Positions 10,825 through 44,492 of a stretch of 64,000 nucleotides of DNA are shown in pieces (position 1 is the first letter of the stretch; every line of letters starts with the position of its first letter). The notes under the pieces are model-generated. The model searched no databases and was not told where the DNA came from. It saw only the letters and a list, made by a program, of their open reading frames with translations. The stretch lies in assembly GCF_003966655.1 (NCBI RefSeq), contig NZ_AP018795.1, positions 434,001 to 498,000 on the forward strand. Reading direction: 5' to 3'. This DNA is from Acidithiobacillus ferridurans (GTDB lineage: Bacteria; Pseudomonadota; Gammaproteobacteria; Acidithiobacillales; Acidithiobacillaceae). The position numbers and the translations under genes were made by a program.

Positions 10825-10830
10825 CCGCAG

Positions 10831-24713: not shown

Positions 24714-25631
24714 TTGCCGCTGGCGATAGTCCACAGCCGCGCCCTGACCGGGATACAGGCAGCAGGCGTCGCCGTGGAATGCGATCTGGGTCCCGGCCTG
24801 CCAACCTTTGCCGTCGTCGGTCTCGCTGAAACGGCGGTCAAGGAAGCCCGGGACCGGGTGCGTTCCGCCATTCAAAACAGCGGCTTCGAGTTTCCGGCAC
24901 GACGGATGGTCGTCAATCTGGCCCCCGCCGACCTGCCCAAGGAAGGTGGCCGCTTCGATCTGCCCATGGCCATCGGTATTCTCGCCGCCAGCGGGCAACT
25001 TCCTGCGGCCGCACTGGAAAAGCTGGAGATGATCGGTGAACTGGCGCTGGACGGCAGCCTGCGTCCGGTGACGGGCACGCTCTCCAGCGCACTGGCGGCG
25101 GGACAGGCCGGACACGCCATTCTGGTGCCGCAAGGCAATGCCCGGGAAGCCGCCTTTGCCCAAAGTACTCCGGTCTTTGCCTGCGCGAACCTGGCACAGG
25201 CCGCCGCCCACCTGCGCGGTACGGATCGCCTACCTGAAGTCGTCTGCGATGCGGAAAGCCTCGAATCGGCCCTTCCGTACCTCGATCTGCGCGATGTGCG
25301 TGGTCAGGAATCGGCCAAGCGGGCACTGATTGTTGCGGCGGTGGGTGGTCATCACCTACTCCTGTCGGGCCCGCCCGGCACCGGGAAAAGCATGCTGGCA
25401 GCACGACTACCCGGCCTGTTACCGCCCCTGCACCGCAGCGAGGCGCTGGAAGTAGCCGCCATCCACAGCCTGCAAGGGGACGGCTTCGATATCCGTCAGT
25501 GGGGCAGACGTCCGTTCCGCAGCCCCCACCATAGTGCCTCTTCAGCGGCGCTGGTGGGCGGTGGTTCGCACCCTCGCCCCGGTGAAATCAGTCTGGCACA
25601 TCACGGCATTCTTTTCCTGGACGAAATGCCT
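24714..25631 (+). pseudogene. comM: comM, 5' part (306 codons), interrupted by the island
   Basis: First part of the YifB/ComM Mg-chelatase-like AAA+ helicase that drives branch migration during natural transformation. Present are the Lon-like N-terminal domain (VVGLAETAVKEARDRVRSAI, NLAPADLPKEG) and Walker A GPPGTGKS at residues 219-226. The frame stops shortly after Walker B: HGILFLDEMP is followed by seven foreign codons and TAA at 25650. TTG start at 24714, 3 bp after ubiK. The remainder lies at 47,326-47,919. A truncated AAA+ domain lacking the arginine-finger half should be inactive. Confidence 0.93.
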
Positions 25632-25962
25632 TCCTTACAATATTGCCAATAATTTTTATAATATCAGGCGACACATTCCCAATATGCTGTTTCTAAATGT
25701 AAAATAGACTTCATCCTTTTGCATTTTCTGCATAAAATGCAGGTTTCCCGCATGCGTCTTTCCCATATTGGAAATTCTCACCAATCCGGGTATCCCCCAT
25801 AGGTTCAATGAGTTGGAAGATTCTCATGTTTACAGGTTGATTTGATGGCATTGTGCATGTATTTTTCATCTAGTGATGTTTTAATGCCCTTTACGAAACA
25901 TATCTTCATGGTGTACAGTGTCTACATGGGCATTTCCACTTTCCGGAGATTGCAAACGCGTC
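25632..25962. repeat. left end of the island: gene-free recombination and promoter region
   Basis: An AT-rich stretch of 330 bp with no convincing gene. It holds TTACAATATTG at 25635-25645, matching with one mismatch the reverse complement of the right-end sequence 47304-47314; CCATATTGGAAATTC at 25762-25776; TTGGAAGATTCT at 25813-25824, an exact direct repeat of 47289-47300; and the 7-bp inverted repeat GCATTTT/AAAATGC at 25721-25727 and 25734-25740. These look like recombinase core and arm sites plus the operon's control region (inference). Confidence 0.6.
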
Positions 25963-27102
25963 ATGGTCACCCGCAAGCTGAGATCCATCCCCGAGTCGCA
26001 CCAGGGCGCGACTATGGCACCGCCAGTCTTTCGTCTACCCGACAAGGACGAAGTGCTGTTTCGGACAATGCTGGAAGCCTACGTCACCCGACGCCTGGGT
26101 GCGTTACGGCATCAACACAAGAGTGTGGATCGAGATACCCGCATCATCCTGGAGTTCCTTCAGTTCAGTGGCAAGGCGCCGTGGTACTGGACCGAAGAAG
26201 GCTTTGAAAAGTGGAGTTATGAGATCGGCGTGGTGCGCGCCCTGGCCGTGAGTTCCCAGCGGCACTATCAGGGTACAATCCGGAGTTTTCTCGCCTACCT
26301 GATAGAGAACCTTAACTTCCGCAATGCCGTGCACCGGGAGTACGGCGTCGATCTGGTACAGATCTGCCATCCAGAGAACTGCATTCCCCATATTTCCGAA
26401 CGGGAACTGATCCGCGAGCGTCCGGCTCTCACCCATGCGGAGATTGACCAGTTTTTTAACGCTTATGATATTGCCATTACTGAAGCCGCCAGCTTTAACA
26501 CGAAAGATCTGCGCCCCCTGCAGCGAGACAAAGCCATGTTTTATTTGACCTATGCGGCGGGGCTGCGGGCTTCCGAAGTCATCGGGCTGAATGTCTCTTC
26601 CTTCCAGCCTAATCCGGATATCCCTGAATTGGGGGCATACGGGTTTGTTTCTGTCTGGGGTAAAGGTAGCCGGGGCAGTGGTCCGAAGCATCGGATGGTA
26701 CCGCTCACACATTTGCCGACTTCTGCCCTGTTGACCTGGTACATTCAGGAGATACGCCCACTGTTTATGGACCTTTCAAACGCGAATGAGAAGGCACTTT
26801 TCCTCTCGGAGCGTGGCCGCCGCATCGCCTTATCGACCTTTGAGGCGCGCTTTCAGCATGGAATCGCCCTGGCCGGACTGGAGGACCATGGATTTACGCC
26901 GCACTGCCTCCGTCACTCTTCGGTCACGCATGAATCCCAGCGCTTCAGTGGGGAAATGGTACGCCGCAAGCACGGGCACACCTATCAGGCGACGACTCAA
27001 GGATATATGCACCATCCCGACGAATTCGTAAACGAGGAAATCACCCGAGCGATTGGCTCGCAACTGGACGCTTTACTGGGCAAGAATGAGGATAAGGAAT
27101 GA
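25963..27102 (+). CDS. tyrosine recombinase/integrase of the island
   Basis: DNA strand-exchange enzyme, the likely integrase/excisionase. With the ATG at 25963 it has 379 residues; a GTG at 25918 is an alternative start. An N-terminal SAM-like DNA-binding domain (about 20-130) precedes the catalytic domain. All catalytic positions are visible: Arg 202 in AAGLRASEV, His 314 and Arg 317 in HCLRH, His 339 in KHGH, and the nucleophile Tyr 348 in GYMHH. The stop overlaps the next gene by 4 bp. It opens a three- or four-gene operon at the left island edge, reading inward. Confidence 0.9.
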   Translation: MVTRKLRSIPESHQGATMAPPVFRLPDKDEVLFRTMLEAYVTRRLGALRHQHKSVDRDTRIILEFLQFSGKAPWYWTEEGFEKWSYEIGVVRALAVSSQRHYQGTIRSFLAYLIENLNFRNAVHREYGVDLVQICHPENCIPHISERELIRERPALTHAEIDQFFNAYDIAITEAASFNTKDLRPLQRDKAMFYLTYAAGLRASEVIGLNVSSFQPNPDIPELGAYGFVSVWGKGSRGSGPKHRMVPLTHLPTSALLTWYIQEIRPLFMDLSNANEKALFLSERGRRIALSTFEARFQHGIALAGLEDHGFTPHCLRHSSVTHESQRFSGEMVRRKHGHTYQATTQGYMHHPDEFVNEEITRAIGSQLDALLGKNEDKE

Positions 27103-27536
27103 GTAAATTGGCGACACTCAATGCACTGGAATGGCGTGTACGCGTGATGATGGCCGAACGCCGCATCAAGACCGTTACCGAACTGCGCAAGCAACTGGAG
27201 GAGGTGGGAGTCGAGATTTCGACGACACAGCTCAGTCGAATAGTGGATGCCCTGCCGACACGTATCAGCTCGGAAGTCCTGGCGGGACTGACCACAGTTC
27301 TGCGTTGTGAGGTCAGTGATCTGATACGGGTAGCCCGGCGTCGTCCGCCGCCCATGGAACAGGACATTGATGACCGTCACCCTTCTGACACCGTTTCCAA
27401 TGCGCGCTCCACCGATGACGCGACACCGGATTCATCGCCCAAACGCGGGATCCGCCGGACGCGGGAACCGATCAGCACGAATGTCACAGGCCCCAAAGTC
27501 ACGGCCCTCCCCATCCCTGAGCGGCCTAAACGTTGA
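27099..27536 (+). CDS. small helix-turn-helix protein of the recombinase operon
   Basis: 145 residues. An N-terminal Xre/Cro-like HTH (about residues 1-75: WRVRVMMAERRIKTVTEL, then TTQLSRIVDALP and TTVLRCEVSDLIRV) precedes a long charged, Pro-rich, probably disordered tail. It overlaps the recombinase stop by ATGA, so it is translationally coupled. It may be a recombination directionality factor or an autoregulator (inference). Its size and company recall the small third protein of Tn554-type modules, but no sequence relation is visible to me. Confidence 0.72.
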   Translation: MSKLATLNALEWRVRVMMAERRIKTVTELRKQLEEVGVEISTTQLSRIVDALPTRISSEVLAGLTTVLRCEVSDLIRVARRRPPPMEQDIDDRHPSDTVSNARSTDDATPDSSPKRGIRRTREPISTNVTGPKVTALPIPERPKR

Positions 27537-27545
27537 GCGCCAACC

Positions 27546-29354
27546 ATGACTCCCGGCAAAGCGCATAAAACCTGCGGCTGTTGTGGTCGGTCGATGGCCA
27601 AGGCCGTCGCCGTAACGGACGGCGTGGCCTATTGCGCGACCTGCTATGCCCGCGAGTTCAAAAAAGTGCCTTGCGTCCAGTGCGGAAAAACCATGCGTTC
27701 ACTGGGCGGCAAAACACCGGCGACCTGTCGTTCCTGCAAGGCCCAGGATCGGTACTGTATCCGCTGTGGCAAACCCGTACCTCGCGCCGGCCTCACGGTG
27801 GAGGAAGGGGTGGTGTGCCCCTCCTGTGTGCGTTATTACAAGGAACCCCAGGCTTGCGCGGTCTGTGGGCAGAAAAGTCTGCGGCTCTCTCGGGATTTTC
27901 AGGAGGGATTCACGGAGCCCGTCTGCAACCATTGTCGGCGCGAAAGTTATATCACCTGTCCTTCCTGTGGCAAACACCGGCGCCCGGCAGGGCCGGATAG
28001 TCAGGGGCGCATTGTCTGCAAGCAATGCCTGGAACGCACAGGCCCCTTCATCTGCCCGCAATGCGGTCAGGAAGGACGCGCCCACAGCAAAACCCGTTGC
28101 GAGGCGTGTTACTGGAAAAATTCTGTCGAAAAGCGCATGCGCAGCGCCGTAGCACTCTTGTCCCGCCCTTGGGCCAAGGAAGCCTTCTCCGGGTTTACGC
28201 TGGAATTGCGGGAACGCGTCGGTGCCCAGCCGGCGGCCATGCGCCTGGAAAAGTATTTTCTGTACTTCGCGAAGCTCGATACCCTGTTCATCACCCCCGG
28301 CGATATCACCGCCGAAAAGCTCATTATGGCTCTGGGACGGGAAGGTTTGCGCCGTTACGCGGTGCCACAAAGTTATCTGATACGCCATGGCATCGTACCC
28401 GCCTTTAGCGACGAAACCCTGCAGGCGGCCAGCGCCGAAGCCGCGCAGATCGCATTACTGACGGCATCCGAAGGCCAATGGTATGCGGGGTTGCTACGGC
28501 GTTTTCACGCCCACCTTGCAGAAATCAATGCCCGCTACCGGACCCGAGGGTGGCAAGGCAAGCAACAGCGTTTCATACCGCGCACAGTGACCACTGCGCT
28601 ACGGGCGGCAAAAATATTTCTGGATTTTCTGGAGATCGACCCGGCGGCGGGGGTACAGCATATTCAGCAGATGCAACTGGACCGTTTTTTGGTGGAGCAC
28701 CCCGGTTATCGGGACGGCATCCGCGCCTTCGTGCGTTTTCTGAATCGCAAGGAAAAACTCTTCCGCAAGCTCAAGATCGAGTCCGTGCAACGCAATCTGC
28801 CCAAGGGCCTTATTCTGGATCGGGATCGTTATACCAGCCTGCTCCGGGCCTGGCTCAACCCTGCAGACGATGTACTCAAGGCCTCCCTGATCAGCACGCT
28901 CATGCTGCTGTATGCGCAAACTGCCAAACGTCTCGTCCGATTGCGCTTAACCGATCTGGCGCAGGGTGCCACGGACGGGATGTATCGGGTGATTTTCGGG
29001 CGCACCGAGATTACCCTGGACCCGCGCGTGGGTCATCTCCTGGCCCGCTATTTGGAGCGGCGTCGCGCGCTGGCGACCATGGAAGATACCGATGACACCG
29101 ACTGGCTCTTTCCGGGACGTCGTCATGGCGGCCACCTGCACGAAGCCATTGTCAGCTACTACCTCAAGAAACAGGGCGTGACAGCGGCCAGTCTGTTTAC
29201 TACCGCCATTTACTACGCCTACCTCGGCGGGTTACGGCACCCCAAAGTGCTGGTCAAGGCCTTTGGGATCACCGACTACACGGCCGTCAAATATCTCCAA
29301 ATGATTGACCCAAGGCTCACCGCCGAAGTGGAGGCCAGAGTTGCCAGCCGATAG
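27546..29354 (+). CDS. zinc-ribbon protein with degenerate tyrosine-recombinase-like C-terminus
   Basis: 602 residues, function unknown. Residues 1-200 carry about a dozen CxxC pairs (CVQC, CRSC, CIRC, CPSC, CAVC, CNHC, CKQC, CPQC and others), so several zinc ribbons. Residues 330-600 resemble a recombinase: a core-binding-like helix bundle, then TLMLLYAQTAKRLVRLRL where the box-I Arg should be but Lys 461 stands, no HxxR in the expected box-II region (YYAYLGGLRHPKVLVKAFG), and a Tyr at about 583 (AVKYLQM). It is thus predicted catalytically dead, perhaps an end-binding or target-selecting partner of the adjacent integrase. It begins 9 bp after the HTH gene. Confidence 0.7.
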   Translation: MTPGKAHKTCGCCGRSMAKAVAVTDGVAYCATCYAREFKKVPCVQCGKTMRSLGGKTPATCRSCKAQDRYCIRCGKPVPRAGLTVEEGVVCPSCVRYYKEPQACAVCGQKSLRLSRDFQEGFTEPVCNHCRRESYITCPSCGKHRRPAGPDSQGRIVCKQCLERTGPFICPQCGQEGRAHSKTRCEACYWKNSVEKRMRSAVALLSRPWAKEAFSGFTLELRERVGAQPAAMRLEKYFLYFAKLDTLFITPGDITAEKLIMALGREGLRRYAVPQSYLIRHGIVPAFSDETLQAASAEAAQIALLTASEGQWYAGLLRRFHAHLAEINARYRTRGWQGKQQRFIPRTVTTALRAAKIFLDFLEIDPAAGVQHIQQMQLDRFLVEHPGYRDGIRAFVRFLNRKEKLFRKLKIESVQRNLPKGLILDRDRYTSLLRAWLNPADDVLKASLISTLMLLYAQTAKRLVRLRLTDLAQGATDGMYRVIFGRTEITLDPRVGHLLARYLERRRALATMEDTDDTDWLFPGRRHGGHLHEAIVSYYLKKQGVTAASLFTTAIYYAYLGGLRHPKVLVKAFGITDYTAVKYLQMIDPRLTAEVEARVASR

Positions 29355-29637
29355 GACATGGTGGGTGTATCTGATCGAGTGCCGGGGTGGCGGCATATAC
29401 ACCGGCATCGCCCTGGATGTCGAAAAACGCTATCAACAGCATATGAACGGCAAAGGCGCCCGATATACGCGCATGAATCCACCGGTACGATTGCTCGCCC
29501 GCCGGGCCTATCCTGACCACCGCAGTGCGGCGCAGGCTGAGTTCACGATAAAGGGGCTTTCCTGCCTGGAAAAATGGCGCTGGGCAGCGGCCTGTGCGCA
29601 AAACGTGAGCAATTTAGCCTTATCCGGTAGTGATTAA
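29341..29637 (+). CDS. GIY-YIG nuclease-domain protein (UPF0213/YhbQ-like)
   Basis: 98-residue single-domain GIY-YIG protein: WWVYLIECRGGGIYTGIALDVEKRYQQH contains both halves of the signature (VYL and IYTGI) and the catalytic Arg in EKRYQQH. AKYTR-like GARYTRMNPP and AEFTIKGLS follow, including the metal-binding Glu. The TTG at 29341 gives the family's usual N-terminus and overlaps the end of the zinc-ribbon gene, so it may be a fourth member of the recombinase operon. A longer start at 29305 is possible. Role as a nuclease in the island is inferred only. Confidence 0.82.
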   Translation: MPADRTWWVYLIECRGGGIYTGIALDVEKRYQQHMNGKGARYTRMNPPVRLLARRAYPDHRSAAQAEFTIKGLSCLEKWRWAAACAQNVSNLALSGSD

Positions 29638-30446
29638 GCGGCCATCTTTCGCAAGAGGTCGGGCGCGTCCTTTGCCGTCACATTCACCAATTGCGCCAAC
29701 TCCTCCAACTCCTCCGCATAGATTTTATTGACCTTGGGGATGGCCTGCGTGAGGACGATACATCGTTCTTTTACCAGAAACCCGGACTCCACGGCCCGCT
29801 GGAAACTGATTAGGGCATCGTTGACCTTTTGCTGGATGTCTTTCTTCGCTCCATGAAACGCGATGGCCTTGAATCCCATACGCGGCTCTTCCGTGATGGC
29901 GTAGGGGAAGGTGGTTACAAAAGGCTTGCCTCCTGGCATTTCAAAGGCCACCTCTACCCCTCGCGCGAACCCTTTACGATATACCAATTCAGACGTGCTG
30001 AAGACATCGTCAATCCATTCGGAGAAGGGCTTCTCTGGCGGTTTTGTCATTGTGCCAATAAGTCTTTCCTCAAGGCTATCGAGCAAAATGTCCACATCGT
30101 TGATATCTGGCCAATCCTCAAAGCGAGATGGGGTCGTAACAATCTGTCGTCCATTCGCCGCAATCTGGTCCAATATCCGATCTGAAATAAGGTTTTCCGG
30201 ATTCCAGGCATCATTCCAGGTGGCGAGGTCTTGTAACCACTGCAACCACTCCCCGAACACCCAGTGCTCGTTGATCTGACGGGGAGCGATCGCGCGATAA
30301 TAGCTGAGATCAATGGCCCCATTTCGCTGCATACCGACGGCACGCACATGGGTCTGTCCCCCTGCTCTGGCCAGCAACGCGAAGTTGCGGCCCTCCTGGC
30401 GCTCTGGAAACTCCCGGTACTGCAAGAGGCGGTATTCCACGATCAT
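29634..30446 (-). CDS. partner protein of the HipA-like kinase (DUF3037-like N-terminus)
   Basis: 270 residues, not confidently recognised. The N-terminal VEYRLLQYREFPERQEGRNFALLA resembles the opening of DUF3037 proteins, which are often found next to HipA-like kinases. The rest is charged and soluble, with no membrane segment. Its start overlaps the kinase-like gene's stop by 4 bp. Its stop overlaps the GIY-YIG stop by 4 bp, in convergent orientation. A regulatory or substrate role for the kinase is inferred from coupling only. Confidence 0.55.
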   Translation of the reverse strand: MIVEYRLLQYREFPERQEGRNFALLARAGGQTHVRAVGMQRNGAIDLSYYRAIAPRQINEHWVFGEWLQWLQDLATWNDAWNPENLISDRILDQIAANGRQIVTTPSRFEDWPDINDVDILLDSLEERLIGTMTKPPEKPFSEWIDDVFSTSELVYRKGFARGVEVAFEMPGGKPFVTTFPYAITEEPRMGFKAIAFHGAKKDIQQKVNDALISFQRAVESGFLVKERCIVLTQAIPKVNKIYAEELEELAQLVNVTAKDAPDLLRKMAA

Positions 30447-31162
30447 GGACGACTCCCGATGAAACTAACATGCCGCTGCACGATGGCAGGGAATGCCTCT
30501 TTTCGCTTCATCATGGCATCTGCGAGGGAGCGTTGCCACTCTTCGGACACGCCACGGAAGGGTTTACCCATTCGGCAGCACTCCCGAACATAGCCGTCCG
30601 GCAACGCCGCGATACGCTTGACCCAGGTGTCCAGATACACGGCCTGGACGCGCCCGTAGAATGGGTGGCGGCGCACAATGGGTTCCCCCACCGCTAATTT
30701 GCGGATGCTGGTCACAGGGTCAGACTCCGCCCCAAGCAGGGCATGGCTGTGATCGAATGCAGCGAAAAGCCGCACATGCGGAGTCACCAGGGAGGCCTTG
30801 AGGTTGCGGGCGCGGTCCCCGTTACCAATGTAGAGGTCGAAGGCGACCAGGGCCGCTACCTGATTGGGATAGGTAGCGGCGATGCGATCCAATTGCGGTT
30901 CCAGCACGTCCGGCAAATTGATTCCGGGAGAATGCACCAAGAGACTTGCATAGGCCGGGCCGTCGCCCGTGGTCGTCAGAACACCCTCGGCTATCGGGAC
31001 GTGCAAGGTTTGCGCGAGGCGCTGGGCGACGTATTCGTTGTAGACACAATGGGGGGATTCGGTACTGTCGAATTTCAAGGCGGCATCCAGGGTGCACACG
31101 GAGGGCATAGTGACGCCTGCCTTGCGGGTTCCGGAAATGCGGCGGATTTTATAGGTTTGCAT
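30443..31162 (-). CDS. HipA-like kinase-fold protein
   Basis: 239 residues with kinase-fold landmarks of the HipA type. These are DAALKFD with a candidate ATP-binding Lys 30, NEYVAQRLAQTLHVPIAEG with Glu 43, the catalytic-loop-like AFDLYIGNGDRARNL (Asp 116, Asn 120), and LFAAFDHSHAL with Asp 137 in the metal-binding position. It is shorter than Escherichia coli HipA (about 440) and lacks its N-terminal subdomain. It forms a tightly coupled pair with the gene after it. Such kinases phosphorylate protein targets; the target here is unknown. No HipB-like antitoxin is adjacent. Confidence 0.65.
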   Translation of the reverse strand: MQTYKIRRISGTRKAGVTMPSVCTLDAALKFDSTESPHCVYNEYVAQRLAQTLHVPIAEGVLTTTGDGPAYASLLVHSPGINLPDVLEPQLDRIAATYPNQVAALVAFDLYIGNGDRARNLKASLVTPHVRLFAAFDHSHALLGAESDPVTSIRKLAVGEPIVRRHPFYGRVQAVYLDTWVKRIAALPDGYVRECCRMGKPFRGVSEEWQRSLADAMMKRKEAFPAIVQRHVSFIGSRP

Positions 31163-32016
31163 CAGTAGTCCATGGTGTGACCTTTTCTGGATACCGCACC
31201 CACCCTATGGTGCCTGGAATTTTCGAGTGCGACGCACGGATACCCTCTGGTTCGGTATCCAACCCACGACCAAGTATGCCAAATCGTAACGGGAAAGCAA
31301 CCGGGACCCGCCTCTTAACGGTTTTCTGCTGGTTTCGACGTTTTCATGTGGGTAGCCTCAGGTCCAACTTACCGAGAATTCGGTAGGCCATGTTGTTGAA
31401 AGTTCTTGTGGGTGCGGCTATGTACCTCTCGTTCTGGACGTGTGCACTCTCGATAACTCCGACTCTCGGGAGGAGAGTCGTCGTGCTCAGCAAGCCTTTT
31501 CGCGCATCCATGCGCGATCGGCCTTGCGCTGGCGACCAGAAAAAAGGCCTCGGACGTCCTAGTCAGCGGCGTACCGCCACGCCCTCGTTGGGGCGCAGAC
31601 GGCACACACGCTTCCCATATGACTCGTCGGTAACCATGCGGTAAAGCACGCGCCTGCACTCCCAGCTTGCGCGGTCGTTTCGGCGGTTGCAGTTCGCCGC
31701 GTTGCTTGCCGGGGACTGCTCGACCTCATGTCACTCTCCTGGCTCGTAGCGAAGGGGGCGTCGGTTGGGCCTACTCGGGGTTTATCAGCCATGCCCCCAA
31801 CAGCCATACATTCTCGGAGCAGCACAGTAAAACCTGGGAGAATGTCGGAAACCGGGGACTTACCCTCCAACGCCGCTCACCTGGGTCAGAATGGCTGGAA
31901 CATCGGCATGGAACTGCGGGAAGGAACCCAGCATCGCTATCGCTTCCCAGCCACACACTTGACACCCCAACCGCTGGCACCTATGCTCGCGCCCATATTC
32001 ATCCCGTGAGCATACG
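31163..32016. other. 850-bp gene-poor stretch inside the island
   Basis: Short open frames occur on both strands but none has a convincing start, ribosome-binding site or protein-like composition, so no gene is called. Structure is present: GGATACCG (31188-31195) is mirrored by CGGTATCC (31252-31259); TACCGA-GAAT-TCGGTA forms a perfect stem at 31369-31384; and GACTCTC/GAGAGTC repeats occur near 31459-31478. It separates the divergent HipA-like pair from the polysaccharide operon and must hold their promoters. It may also be the remains of a lost mobile element. Confidence 0.5.
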
Positions 32017-32379
32017 ATGAAACTCGATGACGCAACGCGCTACCGGCTGCTGAAACTCATTGCCGAACATACGGAATACACCCAGCGCGACCTGGCCGTC
32101 GCCATGGGCGTAAGTGTGGGGAAAACCAACTTTTGTATCAAAGCGCTCGTGGAGAAGGGCTGGGTGAAGGCGGGGAACTTCCGGCGGAACCCCGATAAGA
32201 CGGTGTACGCCTACCTGCTGACGCCCGAAGGCGTCCAGGAAAAGGCACGGGTCACCGTTCGCTTCCTGCACCGGAAAATGGCCGAATACGACGCCCTCCG
32301 GGCGGAGATCGCCGCCCTGCGCCTGGAAGTGGACGATCTTGCCGCGTCAGGCCTCGATGCCGGTAGAGGGGCGGCGTGA
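32017..32379 (+). CDS. MarR-type EPS-associated transcriptional regulator
   Basis: 120 residues. A winged helix (RYRLLKLIAEHTEYTQRDLAVAMGVSVGKTNFCIKALVEKGWVK) with the wing GNFRRNPDKTVYAYLLTPEGVQEKA, then a C-terminal coiled coil (MAEYDALRAEIAALRLEVDDL). This arrangement is the MarR-like family found at the head of exopolysaccharide clusters. It precedes galE, wzx, wzy and transferases here, so it probably governs the locus. The next gene overlaps by 4 bp. Confidence 0.88.
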   Translation: MKLDDATRYRLLKLIAEHTEYTQRDLAVAMGVSVGKTNFCIKALVEKGWVKAGNFRRNPDKTVYAYLLTPEGVQEKARVTVRFLHRKMAEYDALRAEIAALRLEVDDLAASGLDAGRGAA

Positions 32380-32936
32380 CTACCGCCGAGCGCCTCGCGT
32401 CCTACGAAGACCTCTTCGGCCTGCCCGAAAACGTCGTGGGTGAGATTATTGCCGGTCAACTGTATACCCATCCCCGTCCGGCACCAGCTCATGCACGAGC
32501 CCGTTCGGTGCTTGGCAACAAAGTGGGGACGCCTTTCGATCAGGGCGAAGGCGGTGGCCCCGGCGGCTGGTGGATACTCGACAAACCCGAGCTACACCTG
32601 AGCCAAGACATCCTCGTTCCCGACCTCGTCGGCTGGCGCCGCGAGCAGATGCCCGCACTCCCCAAAACCGCGTGGTTCGAGATGGCTCCCGACTGGGTCT
32701 GCGAAGTGCTCTCCCCGGCCACCGCCCGTACCGATCGCGTCCTCAAACTGCCCCACTATGCCGCCACTGGTGTCGCCCACTGCTGGCTCATCGACCCCGA
32801 CGCCCGTACTTTGGAGGCCTACGCCAACCAGGGAGGCCGATGGCTACTCCTGGGCACTTGGGGAGGCGATGACGTGGCCACTATCGATCCCTTCGCCGCC
32901 ATCCCCCTTTGCCTCTCGGGCCTATGGGTGGACTGA
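32376..32936 (+). CDS. Uma2-family (DUF820) PD-(D/E)XK nuclease-like protein
   Basis: 186 residues of the Uma2 family, with the restriction-endonuclease-like core visible: an early Glu in VVGEIIAGQLY, DILVPDLVGWRREQMP with the catalytic Asp, and WVCEVLSPATARTDRVLKLPHYAATGV with the E..S-x-T-x-x-x-D pattern, ending GVAHCWLIDP. GTG start overlapping the regulator's stop as GTGA. Function of the family is not established; it is common in islands. Confidence 0.88.
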   Translation: MTTAERLASYEDLFGLPENVVGEIIAGQLYTHPRPAPAHARARSVLGNKVGTPFDQGEGGGPGGWWILDKPELHLSQDILVPDLVGWRREQMPALPKTAWFEMAPDWVCEVLSPATARTDRVLKLPHYAATGVAHCWLIDPDARTLEAYANQGGRWLLLGTWGGDDVATIDPFAAIPLCLSGLWVD

Positions 32937-32951
32937 ATTGGAGTCAAACTG

Positions 32952-33356
32952 ATGAGCAATAACATCATTCCCATCATCCGACATGCTCCTTCCCGCGCAG
33001 TGCTGAGGGAGTCCTTTTCCGAGATAAACCATCAGATCGTCCATCTGGTCGCGCGCATCCAGGGTGCGGTTATGGACAACGATGATCACTTTTTTGGGCT
33101 CTGCGATGAGCTGCGTAGCCAGATCAGTGAATTAGTAGACATTTGCAGGGATTACGCACAGCCAGAGCTTTCCGCCGACAAGGATGGAGGGAAGGAAAGT
33201 TTGCGCATCCTGATCCTGATGGTCTCGCATATGGAACTCATGTTTCTGTATGCGCGCAAGAACAGAGCCTCGGAGACGCATTACCAAAAGGAGATTAACG
33301 CCACGGCAGATGAATTCCTCCATCGGCAGGCGCGGATTGGAATAGGTAGAGCGTAA
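32952..33356 (+). CDS. hypothetical soluble helical protein
   Basis: 134 residues, not recognised. Mostly helical and acidic (FSEINHQIVHLVARIQGAVM, LRSQISELVDICRDYA), no signal peptide or membrane span, few cysteines. It lies between the Uma2-like gene (15 bp) and galE (16 bp) on the same strand with an ATG and normal spacing, so it is probably expressed with the polysaccharide operon. No function is proposed. Confidence 0.6.
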   Translation: MSNNIIPIIRHAPSRAVLRESFSEINHQIVHLVARIQGAVMDNDDHFFGLCDELRSQISELVDICRDYAQPELSADKDGGKESLRILILMVSHMELMFLYARKNRASETHYQKEINATADEFLHRQARIGIGRA

Positions 33357-33372
33357 TGGGAGTGGGCTAGGT

Positions 33373-34374
33373 ATGAAAGCGCTTTTCCCTGTTCTCGTCG
33401 TCGGCGGTGCCGGTTATATCGGCTCGCATATGGTTAAGATGTTGGTGCAGAGTGGCCATGAAGTCATCGTGCTCGATAACCTCTCTACGGGCTTTCGGGA
33501 TGCCGTGCATTACGGGCGCCTCATAGAAGGTGATCTGGCCGATCAAGCCCTACTCGACCGGATATTTGCCGAAAATAGCATTGCTGCCGTCATGCACTTT
33601 GCCGCCCTCAGTCAGGTGGGCGAATCGATGCATGAACCCGCACGTTATTACCGAAACAATGTCGCCAACACCCAAAACCTACTGGATGCCATGCTCCGTC
33701 ACGGGGTAAGGCGCTTTATCTTCTCTTCCACAGCGGCCATATTTGGCGAACCCGAAGCCTCCTTAATCAATGAGCAACACCCCCAACGTCCGATCAATCC
33801 CTACGGACGCGGCAAGCGGATGGTGGAAGAAATGCTGGGGGACTACGACCGTGCCTACGGCCTGCGCTCGGTCTGTCTGCGTTATTTCAATGCCGCCGGG
33901 GCTGACCCAGAAGGCGAACTGGGGGAGCGCCACGACCCCGAAAGCCACCTGATCCCTCTGGTGCTGCAGACCGCCAGCGGACGTCGCGATCATATCGCTG
34001 TCTATGGGAACGACTACCCGACACCCGATGGCACCTGCATTCGGGATTACATTCACGTCTGGGACCTCTGCAGTGCGCATTTGCTGGCCTTGGAGCATCT
34101 GTTGGCCAATGGCGGCAGCGACATCTTCAACCTGGGCAACGGTACCGGATTTTCTGTGCGGCAGATCATTGACACAGCCCGCCGTGTGACGGGTCAGATC
34201 ATTCCGGAGATCGTCCAGGAACGTCGCGCTGGTGATCCGGCTGTGCTCGTGGCCGATAGCCAAAAGGCACGGCGAGAACTGGGCTGGCAGCCACGATTTG
34301 AGGACCTTGAGACCATCATGGGACATGCGTGGGAGTGGGAGCAGATTTATACGTCAGTGTTTGGTGTTAGGTGA
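33373..34374 (+). CDS. galE: UDP-glucose 4-epimerase
   Basis: NAD-dependent epimerase interconverting UDP-glucose and UDP-galactose (or the N-acetyl forms), supplying sugar nucleotides for the glycan made by this locus. 333 residues: the Rossmann motif GGAGYIGSHMV near residue 9, FSSTAAIFGEP with the catalytic Ser/Thr region, and NPYGRGKRMVEE with the catalytic YxxxK as YGRGK. The C-terminus binds substrate (LRYFNAAGADPEGELGE). It overlaps the flippase gene by 4 bp. Confidence 0.95.
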   Translation: MKALFPVLVVGGAGYIGSHMVKMLVQSGHEVIVLDNLSTGFRDAVHYGRLIEGDLADQALLDRIFAENSIAAVMHFAALSQVGESMHEPARYYRNNVANTQNLLDAMLRHGVRRFIFSSTAAIFGEPEASLINEQHPQRPINPYGRGKRMVEEMLGDYDRAYGLRSVCLRYFNAAGADPEGELGERHDPESHLIPLVLQTASGRRDHIAVYGNDYPTPDGTCIRDYIHVWDLCSAHLLALEHLLANGGSDIFNLGNGTGFSVRQIIDTARRVTGQIIPEIVQERRAGDPAVLVADSQKARRELGWQPRFEDLETIMGHAWEWEQIYTSVFGVR

Positions 34375-35840
34375 CCATTCCGCATCCATCCATTGCTCGA
34401 TCAACCTTGATCAACCTAGCGGGTGCTGTCATATCAAGCGCCCTCTTGCTAATTACAGTACCTCTTTTTCTCAACCTTATCGGCGAAGCTCGCTACGGTG
34501 TTCTGGCCATAGTTTGGCTTCTTCTGGGTTATTTTGGTGTGTTCGACCTAGGATTTGGGCGCGCAGTCGCCAATCGTATCGCAGCCCTTCACGATGCTTC
34601 TGCAGAGGATCGACAAGGTGTTTTTTGGACCGGATTAGCAATCAGTGCAGTAACCGGACTTGTTGGTGGGGCTATTCTCTATCTGCTTGGCGGATGGCTG
34701 TTTGCTCATGTCCTCAATATTCATGGTGCATTGCGTACTGAAGCAGCAAACGCCATGCCGTGGCTGGCGCTTGCCTTGCCCCTTGCTATAATTATATCAC
34801 TGCTTGCGGGTGCACTAGAAGGACGCCAAGCATTTACCGCTCTCAATAGTGCACAGGTTTTCGGTACGGTACTCTTTCAGCTTTTTCCTTTAGGAACGGC
34901 CTATGCGGGATGGATAACGCTTCCTTACTTGATAGCCGCCGCCATTATTGGGCGTCTATTGAGTGCTTTGTTACTCTTTGCCTTGTGCTATCGCTATGTA
35001 CCACTATCTCCACGCCCTCGGTTTGCCATCAGTCAAGTAAAATCCTTGCTTCACTACGGTGGATGGATTACGGTTACTGGACTAGTCAGTCCGATTCTAA
35101 CCGTTTTTGATCGTTTTCTTCTCGGTGCCAAGTTAGGTATGGTCGCTGTCACGACTTACACAGTGCCTTTCAATCTTGTGCTGCGCCTCTCCATTCTCCC
35201 CGCCAGTCTACAAACTGCATTATTCCCAAGGCTTGCTATGGAAGAGCCTGGAAAAGCAAAGCATCTAGCTGAACGAGCTCTGATTTCTATTGCCGCTATC
35301 ATGACTCCGGTTGTGGTGGTAAGCTTGCTGCTTATAAAACCATTTCTCATCATTTGGGTGGGCGAGGCGTTAGCTGGAAAAGCATCTCCAGTAGGGCAAA
35401 TTTTGCTTCTTGGCCTCTGGATAAATACCTTGGCCTTTATTCCTTTTACCTATCTCCAGAGTAGTGGGCGCCCCGATTTGCCTGCCAAGTTTCATGTCCT
35501 AGAGCTAGTGCCGTATATTGTCATTCTATGGCAACTTATCGACAGATATGGAGTGCTTGGTGCAGCTTGGGCGTGGGATATGCGTGTCTTTGTGGATGCC
35601 CTGCTACTTTTCTGGGCGTCCCAGACTTTTTCCGCATTTAAACATGCAGCCGCTGGAATACTTATCGTCATCGGAGCCTTCATAGTGAGTGTTAAACTAC
35701 CTGGTGATACTGTTCTATTTTTGGGGTTGGCTGTTATGTTGGTTGTCAGTAGTTTAGGTTGGTCATTTACCAGCTTGCCCCATGACATACAAATCGGATT
35801 TAGACGGCGAGTACTATTAAGGTATTCACGAAAGAATTAA
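34371..35840 (+). CDS. wzx: Wzx-type lipid-linked oligosaccharide flippase
   Basis: 489-residue polytopic protein of the polysaccharide-biosynthesis/MATE-like exporters, with about 12-14 membrane segments. The start region (INLAGAVISSALLLITVPLFLNLIGEARYGVLAIVWLL) is typical of Wzx proteins, which flip undecaprenyl-linked repeat units to the periplasmic side. GTG start overlapping galE as GTGA. Base composition drops markedly toward AT here compared with galE, as usual in O-antigen/EPS cores. Confidence 0.88.
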   Translation: MTIPHPSIARSTLINLAGAVISSALLLITVPLFLNLIGEARYGVLAIVWLLLGYFGVFDLGFGRAVANRIAALHDASAEDRQGVFWTGLAISAVTGLVGGAILYLLGGWLFAHVLNIHGALRTEAANAMPWLALALPLAIIISLLAGALEGRQAFTALNSAQVFGTVLFQLFPLGTAYAGWITLPYLIAAAIIGRLLSALLLFALCYRYVPLSPRPRFAISQVKSLLHYGGWITVTGLVSPILTVFDRFLLGAKLGMVAVTTYTVPFNLVLRLSILPASLQTALFPRLAMEEPGKAKHLAERALISIAAIMTPVVVVSLLLIKPFLIIWVGEALAGKASPVGQILLLGLWINTLAFIPFTYLQSSGRPDLPAKFHVLELVPYIVILWQLIDRYGVLGAAWAWDMRVFVDALLLFWASQTFSAFKHAAAGILIVIGAFIVSVKLPGDTVLFLGLAVMLVVSSLGWSFTSLPHDIQIGFRRRVLLRYSRKN

Positions 35841-35898
35841 GCGGTTACTTAGAAACTATATGCGTTCGTAATTTTTGGAAGCATGAAAGAGGTGAGAC

Positions 35899-37098
35899 AT
35901 GCGTGTCAGTTTGTCGCCATTGGCGCTATTTTCTTATGTATGGTTACTACAGATTGCGTGTTTCTCCGTAGGAGTTTCCTATATTTTGCTGCGTCTTCAG
36001 GATCTGTCTGTTTTACAGATGGCTATCTTTCCTATCTCATGGGTTGCGTTCGCACTTGGCACACTGTTCATTCGCGTTCTTCCTCGGAAAAAAGGCGCTG
36101 CAAAGCCTGTTCGCATACTACTTGCAAATGATGGTTATTATTATGTTGCATATCAAATCAGAAAGCACATCAAGTTAATTTTATTGCTAGGCTTAACGGT
36201 CGTTGTTTATAATTACTTTATGTTTGGTTATCCGCCATTTGTCGACCTCGTTTTTGGTATTACTTCTAACTATACTTATATGAATTATGGTTCTTTTAAA
36301 AATATTATTTTTTCTGTTTTTATGTTAGCACCACTTCTGGCTCTGTATGATAAAGATAATTCATATAAATATGGTGTTGCCATTATATCTTTTGGAATTT
36401 TAATGTTATACAGTGCGCGAGGGCCAATAATACAAGGAATATTGCAACTTATACTTGTTGGAGCGATAAAAAATAGAGGCAAGATAACCTTTAAAAATTT
36501 TCTTATTGTTTTGTTATCTGCGGTTATTATTATATTCGTAATGGGTTGGATCGGCGCATTAAGGACTGGCACAAACACCATGTATACTGCGCTTCTTATA
36601 CGTAGATGTTTTTATAGTTGGCCCTCTGGCATAGTTTGGGTATTGGCTTATATTTCCATGCCGCTTCAAAATTTATTTTCGCTAGTGTCCAGTAGTTTTC
36701 ATAACTTTAAGATGGGCGAAGTTACTCTTTTTACGCTAGTACCTGGGTTCTTGCATCGTTACTTATTTAGTCACTCGGCAGCACAAATATGGAATAATAT
36801 AATACAAAATTATTTTCCTGATGCGCAAAATACTGTTTCTACATATCTGGGAACTATTTATGTTGATTTCGGATGGCCAGGAGTGCTTGGTTACAACTTT
36901 ATAATCGGAATGATTAGTTCGTTAATATATTTTTATACAAAACAGAGGAACGATCATTTCGTGCGTATTTTGTATGCCATCTGGTCATCCGGATTATTAC
37001 TTATGCTATTTTTTAACATGTTTGTTCTACCGTCATTCTTGTTAGAAATTATATTATTGCTAGTGATTTATCGTGGTGTGCGCCATAGGGTAACTTGA
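35899..37098 (+). CDS. wzy: Wzy-type oligosaccharide repeat-unit polymerase
   Basis: 399 residues, about 10 hydrophobic segments, no soluble enzyme domain. The layout fits Wzy/O-antigen polymerases: a central ALYDKDNSYKYG loop, MLYSARGPIIQGILQ, and a periplasmic loop (FHNFKMGEVTLFTLVPGFLHRYL) followed by STYLGTIYVDFGWPGVLGYNFIIG, a segment widely shared by this polymerase type. Strongly AT-rich with many rare codons relative to the core genes. Placed after the flippase and before glycosyltransferases. Sequence of these polymerases is very variable, so the call rests on topology and context. Confidence 0.8.
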   Translation: MRVSLSPLALFSYVWLLQIACFSVGVSYILLRLQDLSVLQMAIFPISWVAFALGTLFIRVLPRKKGAAKPVRILLANDGYYYVAYQIRKHIKLILLLGLTVVVYNYFMFGYPPFVDLVFGITSNYTYMNYGSFKNIIFSVFMLAPLLALYDKDNSYKYGVAIISFGILMLYSARGPIIQGILQLILVGAIKNRGKITFKNFLIVLLSAVIIIFVMGWIGALRTGTNTMYTALLIRRCFYSWPSGIVWVLAYISMPLQNLFSLVSSSFHNFKMGEVTLFTLVPGFLHRYLFSHSAAQIWNNIIQNYFPDAQNTVSTYLGTIYVDFGWPGVLGYNFIIGMISSLIYFYTKQRNDHFVRILYAIWSSGLLLMLFFNMFVLPSFLLEIILLLVIYRGVRHRVT

Positions 37099-37257
37099 TT
37101 GATTAATGATGCCGGACCTCAGGCGTAAAATAGCCTGATTAGTATGAGTTTCATCTGCATTTTTCGGGTTGGTGCGCCGTTGTGATATAATGGATTGATT
37201 ATTATAGCATGCGAGATTTAAGTCGTGGTTACATTTAGTCTGAAGAGAGATTTCGGC

Positions 37258-38199
37258 ATGAACACTTCTAAGGTTGTCCCAGTCGACAAATCCTTCATTG
37301 TTGCAATAATAGTAACATTTAATCCAGACCTTGTGATATTGTCTGACGTGATAGAGGCGACATGGTCACAAGTCCAGTCGGTGCTCGTTGTTGACAACGG
37401 TTCCGGCAACAATATGTCTAACTGGGTGGCATCTTTGGGTAAAGATAATATCCATGCAATTTCCTTGCAAGAGAATCGTGGTATCGCTGCGGCGCAGAAT
37501 GTGGGAATTCATTGGGCTTTGCAACATGGTAGTGGGTTTGTCCTTCTGATGGATCAAGACAGTATTCCTGAGGAAACTATGGTTAATAAGTTGCTGCTTA
37601 CTTTTCATGACTTGAAAAATAATGAAAATGAAAAAATTGCAGCAATAGGGCCAAGATTCAAAGATAGCAAGAGTGGGCATCTTTCGAAACATGTTTGCTT
37701 CAAAAGGTTTGGTACGAGCCGTATAGCATGCAAGCCAGGAGATCGCGCAGTGCCTGTTGACTTTCTTATCGCATCCGGGTCCCTAATTGAGTCGAAGATT
37801 TTTGATACAGTTGGTTTTATGGACGAAGGGTTATTTATTGATCACGTCGATACTGAATGGATATTGCGAGCTAGATCAAAAGGATATTATGCATGGGGCC
37901 ATTGCGATGCTGCTATGACGCATTCCTTAGGTGAAAGTCGTGTCCGTTTGTGGATTGGTCGTTGGCGCGACATTCCTATTCATAAACCCTTTCGATATTA
38001 TTATGTTTTTCGCAATAGTATACTTATTCGGCGCCGCGATTATCCGTGTTCCGATTGGCGGCGCGTCGATATGATTAGACTCGTGCAACTTTTTATATTT
38101 ATGGTCGTATTTCATCCGCACCGTATTCGGACGTTACGCATGATGTTTCTAGGAATAATGCATGGCCTGAAGGGAATTGAGGGGCCGTTGACGAGATGA
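37258..38199 (+). CDS. family 2 glycosyltransferase (rhamnosyltransferase-like)
   Basis: 313 residues with a GT-A fold: IVAIIVTFNPDLVILSDVI, VLVVDNGSGNN, ENRGIAAAQNVGI, the metal-binding LLMDQDSIP, and GFMDEGLFIDHVDTEW. The pattern matches rhamnosyltransferases of O-antigen loci. A hydrophobic C-terminal helix may anchor it. The start at 37258 has GAAGAGAGA 7 bp upstream; the GTG at 37225 is a less likely alternative. AT-rich like wzx and wzy. Confidence 0.85.
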   Translation: MNTSKVVPVDKSFIVAIIVTFNPDLVILSDVIEATWSQVQSVLVVDNGSGNNMSNWVASLGKDNIHAISLQENRGIAAAQNVGIHWALQHGSGFVLLMDQDSIPEETMVNKLLLTFHDLKNNENEKIAAIGPRFKDSKSGHLSKHVCFKRFGTSRIACKPGDRAVPVDFLIASGSLIESKIFDTVGFMDEGLFIDHVDTEWILRARSKGYYAWGHCDAAMTHSLGESRVRLWIGRWRDIPIHKPFRYYYVFRNSILIRRRDYPCSDWRRVDMIRLVQLFIFMVVFHPHRIRTLRMMFLGIMHGLKGIEGPLTR

Positions 38200-38377
38200 A
38201 AACTGATATTTGTTGCTACAAAGGTGCGCAATGCAGAAACATGTTATTACAGGACGAAAGACTTCGGTAATTGATGGCAGTCAAATCCAATCCACCTTCT
38301 TTTTGATATTGAATCAGTATGCATTTTATTAATATCGCATATTATGGTCTAGATAAGGTGGATTTAAGGTCAGGCAT

Positions 38378-39307
38378 ATGACATCTCCAGGATCCTTTGC
38401 AGTGATCATTCCGACGTTAAACGGTGGCGAAGTCTGGCTGAAATGCCTCAATGCGCTTCGCCAGCAGGTCCCCCAGACCGACCACGTGATGATTTTAGAC
38501 TCTGGCTCATCGGACGGGTCGGATAAGTTGGCTGAACAAATGGGTTATGAGGTAGTACGCATCGCCAAGAAGGAATTCGACCACGGGGGTACGCGGCAGA
38601 TGGCTGCCGAACGACTGGCGGCGTTTGATGTGCTGGTTTACCTCACTCAAGATGCTGTGCTGGCGTCACCCAATGCATTAGCGCGGTTGGTGGCGTCATT
38701 CTCCGATCCCAACATGGGCACCGCATATGGGAGACAGTTGCCCAGACAGGGATCAAACGCCATCGAAGCTCACGCTCGTCTTTTCAACTACCCACCTCAA
38801 TCGAACACGCGAACCCTTGCAGATAAGGCGCACATGGGTATCAAGGCAGCCTTCACCTCCAATTCCTTTGCGGCCTACCGCACGGAGGTGCTGTCGGCTG
38901 TTGGGGGCTTTCCCAAAAGCCTAATTCTGGGTGAAGACATGGTGGTGGCCGCTCGTATGCTGCAGGCGGGTTGGGCGGTTGCCTATGTGGCCGAGGCCCA
39001 GGTGTGGCATTCGCACGCCTATAGTGTGGTGCAGGAGTTTAAGCGCTATTTTGACATTGGCGTGATGCATCAGGACCAGGCGTGGATTCTTCGGGATTTT
39101 GGAAAACCAGAAGGGGAAGGTGGACGCTTTGTGCGTTCCGAGTTTGCCTACCTCAAAGATCATGCGCCTTGGTTGTTGCCTTCTGCTTTTGTTCGCACCC
39201 TGGCCAAATACCTGGGATACAAACTTGGCCAGCGCTCATTATCGTTGCCCTTATCCATTAAACGCAAGCTGAGTATGCACCGGGGTTATTGGGCTAAGCG
39301 CGGGTAG
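38378..39307 (+). CDS. family 2 glycosyltransferase
   Basis: 309 residues, GT-A fold: FAVIIPTLNGGEVWLKCLNAL, MILDSGSSDGSDKLA, FDHGGTRQMAAERL, VLVYLTQDAVLASP with the DxD-like metal site, and SFAAYRTEVLSAVGGFP/LGEDMVVAARML. This resembles rhamnosyl/mannosyl transferases of EPS loci. GC content is clearly higher than in the three genes before it, suggesting a different source. A 178-bp AT-rich gap precedes it with no gene seen. Confidence 0.87.
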   Translation: MTSPGSFAVIIPTLNGGEVWLKCLNALRQQVPQTDHVMILDSGSSDGSDKLAEQMGYEVVRIAKKEFDHGGTRQMAAERLAAFDVLVYLTQDAVLASPNALARLVASFSDPNMGTAYGRQLPRQGSNAIEAHARLFNYPPQSNTRTLADKAHMGIKAAFTSNSFAAYRTEVLSAVGGFPKSLILGEDMVVAARMLQAGWAVAYVAEAQVWHSHAYSVVQEFKRYFDIGVMHQDQAWILRDFGKPEGEGGRFVRSEFAYLKDHAPWLLPSAFVRTLAKYLGYKLGQRSLSLPLSIKRKLSMHRGYWAKRG

Positions 39308-39349
39308 GGTGTGGCTGACGTCTTAATGGACAAGGGGGCGCGGTGAAAT

Positions 39350-39610
39350 ATGGTGCTGGCGCGTGCCAAACCCGACACCGCCCGGGAGGATATGAACGAC
39401 CTGCTGCAACTGGATTTCCGGGTTGCCGAAGGGCCGGAACTGTATACGCTGGCCATCGCCCTTTCCCGGCGATACGGGCATCATCTTTTTGACACTTTGT
39501 ACCATGCGCTGGCTTTGCTTCATCCCGAAGCGGTGCTGGTAACCGTCGACCGGCGATACTTCGCCAAGGCCCAAACAGAAGGGCGCATTATTTTGTTGGG
39601 AGATTTTTAG
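39350..39610 (+). pseudogene. truncated PIN-domain (VapC-like) toxin, C-terminal half
   Basis: 86 residues corresponding to the second half of a PIN ribonuclease: LYTLAIALSRRYGHHLFDTLYHALALLHPEAVLVTVDRRYFAKA, containing the distal acidic residues (FDTLYHAL and TVDRRYF). The first half, with the N-terminal Asp and central Glu, is missing; only 42 bp separate it from the upstream gene. A protein without these acids cannot form the active site, so it is read as a remnant. Confidence 0.7.
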
Positions 39611-39740
39611 GAAAATTTAAGTAGCGAACGCTGAGGATCGGATACCGCTATGGGCGAATGCTTGCTTGATGGCTGAGCGACCTGCGTAGCGTTTAACATT
39701 AGTCTATCAGTTGCTTGAATATCGTCTTTGCGGAGGATTT

Positions 39741-41774
39741 TTGCCTATTTCTACCCCTGTGTCGCGTCCCTGGTTGTACGCCCTGTTACCCTTCGTAGCC
39801 TACCTGCTGTCTTGGTACTACAACGGGCAGATTATCCCGTTGCTGGCTCTCAGCATGATCGTATATCTTCTATGGGGGGCTTGGGTATGGTGGCCACGTT
39901 TGCGCAGGGGCTTGGCCTGGCCGCGTGGTTTTCTGCCAACGTTCATGGTGCTCTGGCTCCTCTGGTTCGGTGTTACGCTGTTCTGGAGCGGTGTACCCTA
40001 TAGCAGTTGGTTTTATTTCTGGGTTCTGGGGTCTTTGCCGCTTGGGTTCCTGATTTGGGTCACGATGCCCGATGCCGTACAGGAGCGCGCCTGGATCTGG
40101 TTATGGTGGGGGGCGATAGCCAGTGCCTGGGTGCTGAGCAGTATGGCGCTTTGGCAGTATTACCAATGGATGGGGCAAGGTATCGGCTGGACAGGTTTGC
40201 GCCCCAATGGCCCCTTGCTCGATACGAATAGCTTTGCGGCATGGCTCAATCTGTTGTTCTTTCCATTGCTTGCCGTGTATTTTGCGTATGACGCACAGAG
40301 AAAGGTTTGGTTTCTAGGTCGTCAGGTAGATCTTCTCGGGCTTTTTTACCTGGCCACCATCACTGTTGTGCTATTGGCCTTCTTCTCCACGGGCAGCCGG
40401 GGTGGTCTGTTGGCGTGGTTGTGTACCTTATCCTTTGCACTGTGGGGCTTCAGGCGACAGGCTGGCTCGTTCCCGCGCTGGATGATGGTCTTCGCCTTGG
40501 CCCTGCTGGCCTTTTTGTTGATGAATTATGCAAAAGGCTACGATATTTTGGGCCATCTAGCTCCAGGTTATATCGACCACAACAGCTCTACAGTAGCTCG
40601 TGGCCTTATGTGGCTGGCCACTTGGCACATCTTTCTCAGCCATCCCTGGCTGGGCACGGGGTTAGGCAGTTATTTCCTCTACTATCCCGCCTATCGGCTC
40701 CCTGGGGAACTGGCATCTGCTGGCACCTACGCACACAACGATTATATCGAATATCTGGCGGAAGGTGGGTTGGTCAATCTGGGCTTTCTGTTGGCTTTTG
40801 CCGGTTCGCTGATGTACGCGCTCTATAAGTTACTCTACAAGGCCGGGAAATCCCTGAATCTGCCCGAAGGGCGGCGTCTGGAAGCCCTTGGTCTGGTACT
40901 GGGGGTGTTTGCCATTACGGGACATGCCCTGGGGAATTTCATCTTTTATAACCTGCCCCTCAGTGTACTGGCGGGATTATTCCTGGCGCGGGCGTGGCGA
41001 ATCTATGGCTATCATGGGGAGACTGCGCCGATCTTGCCCCGCATCGGTATCCATCATGGGGCAATTGCCCAGGCAGTGATGGTTGTCGCGGTGGTGGTGG
41101 CCTCCTGGAACCTGCTGGCGGACGGCGCGACATTCGCCCTATTCAGCAGTAATGGTTGGCTCAATAAGGTGATTCCCAACAGTAATCAACGGGCGGTGTT
41201 TTTACTGAAGGCTGCAGATTGGATCAGTTTGGCGAGACCGCTGGCTACCCAGCCCCATGTTTATCTGGCCAATACCTATCTGTCGCTGGCTGAGCGTGAC
41301 AAGTCTCTTAATGCACCTCATCGCAAGGCGCTGGTGGAAAGTGCGCTGCAACAATACCGACAGAGTCTGGTGGGCATTCCCCGTCAATCGGGGGTGCTCA
41401 ATTCCATCGGCAGTCTTTATCTGACCCATGCGCAGTTGCTCGGTCTGAGTCCTGTACAGGCAGAGCGCAAGGCCTTGCTGGCATGGCGCCATGGCCTCGC
41501 CATCAATCCTGAGAGCATCAGTTTGCGCAACCAGGTCGCGCAACTGGCTTTCGTCCAGCACGGGGATGTGAACGGAGCCATCGCTTTTTTGCGCGCTGGT
41601 TTGCAGCGGCCACTCTTTCCTTTTCCGCGCAGCAACTTGCAGATGGAAATCGCCCTGACCCAGTGGCGTGCGGGGGAAAAGTCGGCAACCATGGCGACAC
41701 TGGTGCAATTGCTACGGGAGAATCCGGACTACCATCCGGCGATCGCATGGTTATTGTCCATGAAGAAAAGTTGA
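39741..41774 (+). CDS. O-antigen ligase/polymerase-like membrane protein with C-terminal repeats
   Basis: 677 residues from the TTG at 39741, chosen because GGAGG lies just upstream (39732-39736); a TTG at 39711 would add ten residues. About 12 membrane segments come first, with the Wzy_C/WaaL-type periplasmic block (ARGLMWLATWHIFLSHPWLGTGLGSY, then AHNDYIEYLAEGGLVN). A periplasmic helical C-terminus with TPR-like repeats follows (ALLAWRHGLAINPESISLRN, IALTQWRAGEKSATMATLVQLLRENPDY). Such proteins transfer glycan to lipid A-core or to protein (PglL group). Which acceptor applies cannot be read. Confidence 0.85.
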   Translation: MPISTPVSRPWLYALLPFVAYLLSWYYNGQIIPLLALSMIVYLLWGAWVWWPRLRRGLAWPRGFLPTFMVLWLLWFGVTLFWSGVPYSSWFYFWVLGSLPLGFLIWVTMPDAVQERAWIWLWWGAIASAWVLSSMALWQYYQWMGQGIGWTGLRPNGPLLDTNSFAAWLNLLFFPLLAVYFAYDAQRKVWFLGRQVDLLGLFYLATITVVLLAFFSTGSRGGLLAWLCTLSFALWGFRRQAGSFPRWMMVFALALLAFLLMNYAKGYDILGHLAPGYIDHNSSTVARGLMWLATWHIFLSHPWLGTGLGSYFLYYPAYRLPGELASAGTYAHNDYIEYLAEGGLVNLGFLLAFAGSLMYALYKLLYKAGKSLNLPEGRRLEALGLVLGVFAITGHALGNFIFYNLPLSVLAGLFLARAWRIYGYHGETAPILPRIGIHHGAIAQAVMVVAVVVASWNLLADGATFALFSSNGWLNKVIPNSNQRAVFLLKAADWISLARPLATQPHVYLANTYLSLAERDKSLNAPHRKALVESALQQYRQSLVGIPRQSGVLNSIGSLYLTHAQLLGLSPVQAERKALLAWRHGLAINPESISLRNQVAQLAFVQHGDVNGAIAFLRAGLQRPLFPFPRSNLQMEIALTQWRAGEKSATMATLVQLLRENPDYHPAIAWLLSMKKS

Positions 41775-41830
41775 CGGAAGCATGCCCTATTCGTAAAGTA
41801 GTGTCAGAACCTATTCCATGAGGTGTGGTT

Positions 41831-42531: not shown

Positions 42532-42618
42532 AAAAGAAGTGCGGCAGTGCACAGGGAGGCTGGCAAGGAGTAAAGGGTGAGAGTCCCTCACAGTAAGGAT
42601 TTAGCGAATCACGCGTAA

Positions 42619-42655: not shown

Positions 42656-42719
42656 GCACTGCTTTTCGGCAATGATACCCTGGCGCTAGCGGCTGCTTTT
42701 TGATTCGGCCGTATCGCCC

Positions 42720-44470: not shown

Positions 44471-44492
44471 TTCCACTGGTAATGACCGCGCA

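Follow-up and report, generated by a model that had tools for sequence, protein, structure and literature searches.

The locus

The window, a stretch of 64,000 nucleotides from Acidithiobacillus ferridurans, holds comM (yifB) in two parts. The 5′ part (24714–25630, + strand), a Mg-chelatase-like AAA ATPase (TIGR00368, E = 8.5e-115), lies directly upstream of a recombinase operon and the 3′ part follows at 47325–47919 (+), the gene being cut after the second base of the proline codon in the Walker-B sequence LFLDEMP. Removal in silico of 25631–47324 (21,694 bp) joins the two parts into an open comM of 503 codons without a target duplication. A relative (L012), whose 5′ comM part is 98% identical, carries an uninterrupted comM, in which the empty site reads GACGAAATGCC followed by CGAGTTCCC. 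Compared with this empty site, the left junction in the window falls between GACGAAATGCC and TTCCTTACAATATT, and the right junction between AATATTGGAATTTCCCAGTA and CGAGTTCCC. The GC content of the element is 53.6% versus 61–62% in the 5-kb flanks.

At the left, the element begins with an AT-rich region, end1 (25631–25962, +), which opens with TTCCTTACAATATT. It is followed by the gene for a tyrosine recombinase, YRec (25963–27102, +; ATG at 25963; Pfam Phage_integrase, E = 9e-17), with the full R-K-H-R-H-Y set: R202, K234, H314, R317, H339 and Y348 do not vary among 9 proteobacterial and actinobacterial relatives. The next gene (27099–27536, +) overlaps that of YRec by 4 bp and encodes a Cro/C1-type HTH protein of 145 amino acids (HTH_26, PF13443, E = 2.3e-9). 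It precedes the gene for a TnsF-like target selector of 602 amino acids (27546–29354, +) with zinc ribbons, a CB-like helical region and a degenerate CAT domain, the end of which is overlapped by 50 bp by a gene for a GIY-YIG nuclease (29305–29637, +; PF01541, E = 2.8e-12). An earlier note on this DNA had described the recombinase with five of these residues (all but K234), the coupled HTH protein and the GIY-YIG overlap; all are present, and its residue numbering is exact.

On the opposite strand lie the genes for a 270-amino-acid protein that belongs to no Pfam family (29634–30446, −) and for a HipA_2-like kinase (30443–31162, −), the match of which is weak and below the Pfam cut-off. The variable cargo (31163–46613, +) encodes a MarR-like protein, a Uma2 nuclease, an epimerase, a flippase, a polymerase-like protein, glycosyltransferases, an O-antigen ligase, a sugar transferase and a 706-amino-acid protein (44493–46613, +) without a Pfam match. 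Apart from the kinase and its partner, the cargo is a surface-polysaccharide cluster together with the Uma2 nuclease and remnants of an IS66 transposase (46614–47286, +; LZ_Tnp_IS66, E = 2e-4), which are found immediately inside the right end. This end, end2 (47287–47324, +), contains the direct repeat TATTGGAAGATTCT / TATTGGAATTTCCCAGTA, which stops at the junction.

Identification as a Tsy transposon

Tsy transposons, described by Faure et al. (2023; PMC10293859), carry yrec, hth and tnsF together with a GIY-YIG gene and are inserted in comM. For ZooTsy from Zoogloea sp. LCSB751 the formation of a circle, the targeting of comM by TnsF and the requirement for YRec, HTH and TnsF have all been shown (PMC10293859). 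Because it agrees with these elements in the order of the genes, in the codons hit, in orientation and at end2, the segment 25631–47324 is very probably a structurally complete Tsy of 21,694 bp in comM that would be mobilised as in ZooTsy. The domain layout of TnsF, with N-terminal zinc fingers followed by the CB and CAT recombinase domains, is also of the Tsy type, as judged from a low-confidence model. Against this account stand the IS66 remnants beside end2, the position of the closest relative copy outside comM and the strongly altered catalytic set of TnsF. The earlier note had proposed a distinct integration module: self-contained and different from Tn554 it is, but not new. The checks that the note had set for its own refutation, for a missing recombinase fold and for genes that stand apart and not at integration junctions, were carried out and did not overturn its reading.

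Elements of other multi-recombinase types (Tn554-type, RIT, GInt or gamma-mobile-trio) would likewise combine, in one operon, the genes for a recombinase, for a small protein and for a further recombinase-like protein. However, YRec is the only one of the two recombinase-like proteins here with all active-site residues, and both the zinc-ribbon N-terminus and the comM target are traits of TnsF, which makes such an assignment highly improbable. The gamma-mobile-trio in particular was rejected: the GmtY model matched far below its cut-off (E = 0.003, 16.8 of 340 bits), and the NCBIfam models for GmtX and GmtZ gave no match. A Tn7-like Tn6022 element, which would share the target gene and a homologous TnsF and of which an example is inserted in comM of a different genome of the genus (G006, L033), has a still more negligible chance, since TnsA, TnsB, TnsC and TniQ, the components of Tn7, are absent from the operon and the CAT domain of TnsF is full-length.

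Within the Tsy identified here, the 270-amino-acid protein and the HipA-like kinase (29634–31162, −) may form a toxin-antitoxin-like or defence pair that these transposons have retained. The pair recurs beside tnsF in three other loci (L032, L034 and L035); the 270-amino-acid protein had no match on plasmids.

The ends of the element

In the description of Tsy neither inverted repeats nor canonical ends were found (PMC10293859). An alignment of four end2 sequences, from the window, two Mariprofundus copies and ZooTsy, reveals the common pattern TATTGGA-N3-TCCCAGT up to the junction; the published ZooTsy end2 amounts to 30 bp, and there is one substitution in the region of one Mariprofundus copy. 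The pattern occurs once in the window, where none is expected by chance, and in just one other of 17 genomes of the same genus, there as a solo remnant. Taken by itself and with 3 mismatches allowed, the 14-bp motif TATTGGAAGATTCT shows no over-representation in the window; the argument therefore rests on where the motif lies, at end2 of several copies. A second TATTGGAAGATTC is located about 20 bp inside end2 in the window and in the two Mariprofundus copies.

The solo end2 (AATATTGGAATTTCCCAGTA) lies at positions 1493–1519 of L069 (G002), upstream of a pirin-like gene, in a genome with a full-length comM elsewhere; it is a remnant at a non-comM site.

End1 has a GC content of 36% over 25631–25917 and holds repeats similar to TATTGGAA in both directions as well as GCATT/AATGC words. 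The end1 counts of these words were 5, 9 and 8 versus shuffle means of 1.6, 1.8 and 1.4, and the words are candidates for accessory binding sites. In Mariprofundus the end1 sequences begin with AACCTTCCAATATT, which places TTCCAATA opposite TATTGGAA across the circle junction, a pattern as would be expected of a recombinase core; the start of end1 in the window, TTCCTTACAATATT, is a weaker version of this arrangement. These shared ends, which derive from sequence comparison, are new relative to the published description, where none were recognised (PMC10293859).

Proposed course of transposition

If the element works as ZooTsy does, TnsF with its zinc ribbons would bind the Walker-B region of comM and mark it as the target; choosing the target is its most likely role. 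YRec, the active tyrosine recombinase, would join end2 to end1 and thus generate a circle with the predicted junction ...TTTCCCAGTA joined to TTCCTTACAAT..., and would subsequently recombine the circle into comM, with target bases neither lost nor duplicated. The HTH protein would be a required and the GIY-YIG nuclease an enhancing accessory. Both the movement of the window copy in the manner of ZooTsy and the exact chemistry of TnsF, which is considered below, are inferred.

Is TnsF catalytic?

TnsF has exactly 12 CxxC pairs within residues 10–188, about a dozen having been noted before, and all 24 cysteines are invariant in 6 homologues. The six Tsy-like TnsFs compared are from the same genus (twice), Variovorax, a member of the Myxococcaceae and Mariprofundus (two). 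All six have kept Tyr583, and all six are devoid of the box-I arginine, the beta-hairpin lysine, the HxxR motif and the final histidine. In a profile comparison with YRec, T459 (with K461 nearby) falls at box I, R486, which is not conserved, at the beta-hairpin lysine, and A548 and F551 at the HxxR positions; the motif alignment puts I575 at the final histidine and Y583 at the nucleophile. The recombinase-like C-terminus with its tyrosine and without box-I arginine and HxxR, as described in the earlier note, is thus borne out by alignment. Another catalytic set, made up of the conserved H565, K567 and R465, was considered and dropped because H565 and K567 align at non-catalytic positions.

The structure of TnsF was predicted with low confidence (mean pLDDT 61–62). 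With the whole model Foldseek returned XerH and Cre (the fold matches include XerH, XerA, Cre and LIM), and with residues 336–602 the top 29 matches were all tyrosine recombinases, the best with a probability of 1.00 although TM-scores were low. The predicted C-terminus is therefore of the recombinase fold, as had been anticipated. A sequence search of the PDB found no close solved relative.

These residues do not fit easily with the literature, in which TnsF of Tsy is labelled as having an "active tyrosine recombinase domain" and the catalytic activity of TnsF is reported to be essential for the transposition of ZooTsy (PMC10293859). The residue analysis of the earlier note is right and conflicts with this label. 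Since the catalytic set is so far from canonical, the published role as active recombinase is not simply transferable to TnsF of the window: either TnsF of ZooTsy differs, or its tyrosine (Tyr584) serves something besides ordinary self-contained catalysis.

The most plausible reading, to which we lean only tentatively, is that TnsF is catalytically dead and binds DNA only, for target choice or the bridging of ends, while strand exchange is left entirely to YRec and Tyr583 has a structural role. It accounts for the four missing motifs in 6/6 Tsy-like TnsFs and is in line with six actinobacterial relatives, mostly in YRec-HTH operons, that do not have even the tyrosine, and with the TnsF of Tn6022, known as a non-catalytic selector. 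It has against it the reported need for TnsF catalysis in ZooTsy (PMC10293859) and the invariance of Tyr583. Because of these two points the idea in the earlier note of a dead paralogue that chooses or bridges ends is too strong with respect to "dead", whereas site-choosing, shown for the TnsF of ZooTsy (PMC10293859), can be retained. Possible, if rather doubtful, is the published reading that TnsF is an active recombinase which cleaves a comM strand with its own tyrosine in its own pocket. It agrees with the ZooTsy mutant result and description (PMC10293859) and with the retained tyrosine, but the residues by which canonical tyrosine recombinases activate the phosphate are replaced (T459/K461, A548, F551, I575), and this consistently in all six proteins.

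An active site could also be split between the two proteins, YRec providing the Arg-Lys-His-Arg-His pocket and TnsF donating its tyrosine in trans at comM. The subunits of Flp donate a tyrosine to one another in a comparable manner, whereas here the donation would be between two different proteins. Although unlikely, such a division of labour would, if true, bring the degenerate state of TnsF into line with the published requirement for its catalytic activity, and would mean that the actinobacterial branch has abandoned the donation of tyrosine.

Relatives and distribution

Copies split comM also in Mariprofundus micogutta and Mariprofundus EBB-1, and in L036 and L035 the insertion is at the same comM codon as in the window. 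For Acidithiobacillus ferrooxidans, comM has been listed as the site of a candidate island (PMC10322971). The closest relative copy (L032 of G016, 7089–11809), with a TnsF 94% identical, is outside comM, which is intact elsewhere in that genome; the start of its yrec is replaced and a DDE transposase gene adjoins, and this copy may be an immobile relic. The Tn6022-like element of G006 (L033, 9716–16477) has the composition TnsA-TnsB-TnsC-TniQ-TnsF and resides in comM, so that within the genus a single site serves two unrelated types of transposon.

Operons of YRec, HTH and a zinc-ribbon protein are also found on actinobacterial plasmids of Streptomyces, Kocuria, Paenarthrobacter and Glutamicibacter. 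In six actinobacterial relatives of TnsF the tyrosine position is occupied by W, W, W, L, H and H, and in L003, L005, L061, L064, L065 and L066 the third protein is without the catalytic tyrosine where its end is intact. The operon of Paenarthrobacter adjoins a SIR2-ATPase pair. Next to the operons on the Variovorax, Streptomyces and Glutamicibacter plasmids searched there was no split comM (the Variovorax plasmid gave one weak comM match, far from the operon), which indicates that these relatives use other sites.

Full-length TnsFs were few both in a sample of the class (369 genomes) and in one of the phylum (398 genomes), and Tsy is therefore rare. A contig search with a single protein as query gave no match, nor did viral contigs searched with two TnsF alignments and a YRec alignment, and phage records yielded just two short partial matches; the element is thus not phage-borne in the collections searched.

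Significance and comparison with known systems

The window provides a base-exact copy of Tsy in which the operon is intact and both ends are present, and with it come conserved end sequences for a class of elements previously without recognised ones. It also exposes a conflict: the site-choosing partner has been published as active, yet nearly all the residues needed are absent in every copy sampled. The role of the second Tsy protein is thereby made directly testable. Tsy is of interest as a natural system for site-specific insertion and is the apparent source of the target selector of Tn6022.

Tn554 is a trio-type element with a different small protein and no zinc-ribbon selector. It is also a multi-gene, recombinase-based system for insertion into one site, but it has two active recombinases, whereas in the operon of the window the active site is complete in YRec alone. 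The actinobacterial operons share with the window the three-gene order and a complete YRec active site and differ in that their TnsF-like protein is without the tyrosine and no GIY-YIG gene is listed alongside. Tn6022-like Tn7 transposons have a TnsF homologue (about 31–36% identity within the genus) and the comM target in common with the window element; however, they use TnsABC-TniQ, their TnsF is shortened at the C-terminus and their transposition chemistry is another one. The closest is ZooTsy. The TnsF of the window is without the canonical catalytic set except for the tyrosine, at 583 versus 584 in ZooTsy, the TnsF of which is compared by its published description only. The host is another one, and the 21.7 kb of the window element include surface-polysaccharide cargo. 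Both elements have the order yrec-hth-tnsF-GIY-YIG, both split comM with its 5′ part upstream of yrec, and end2 is AATATTGGAGAATCCCAGT in ZooTsy and AATATTGGAATTTCCCAGT in the window element.
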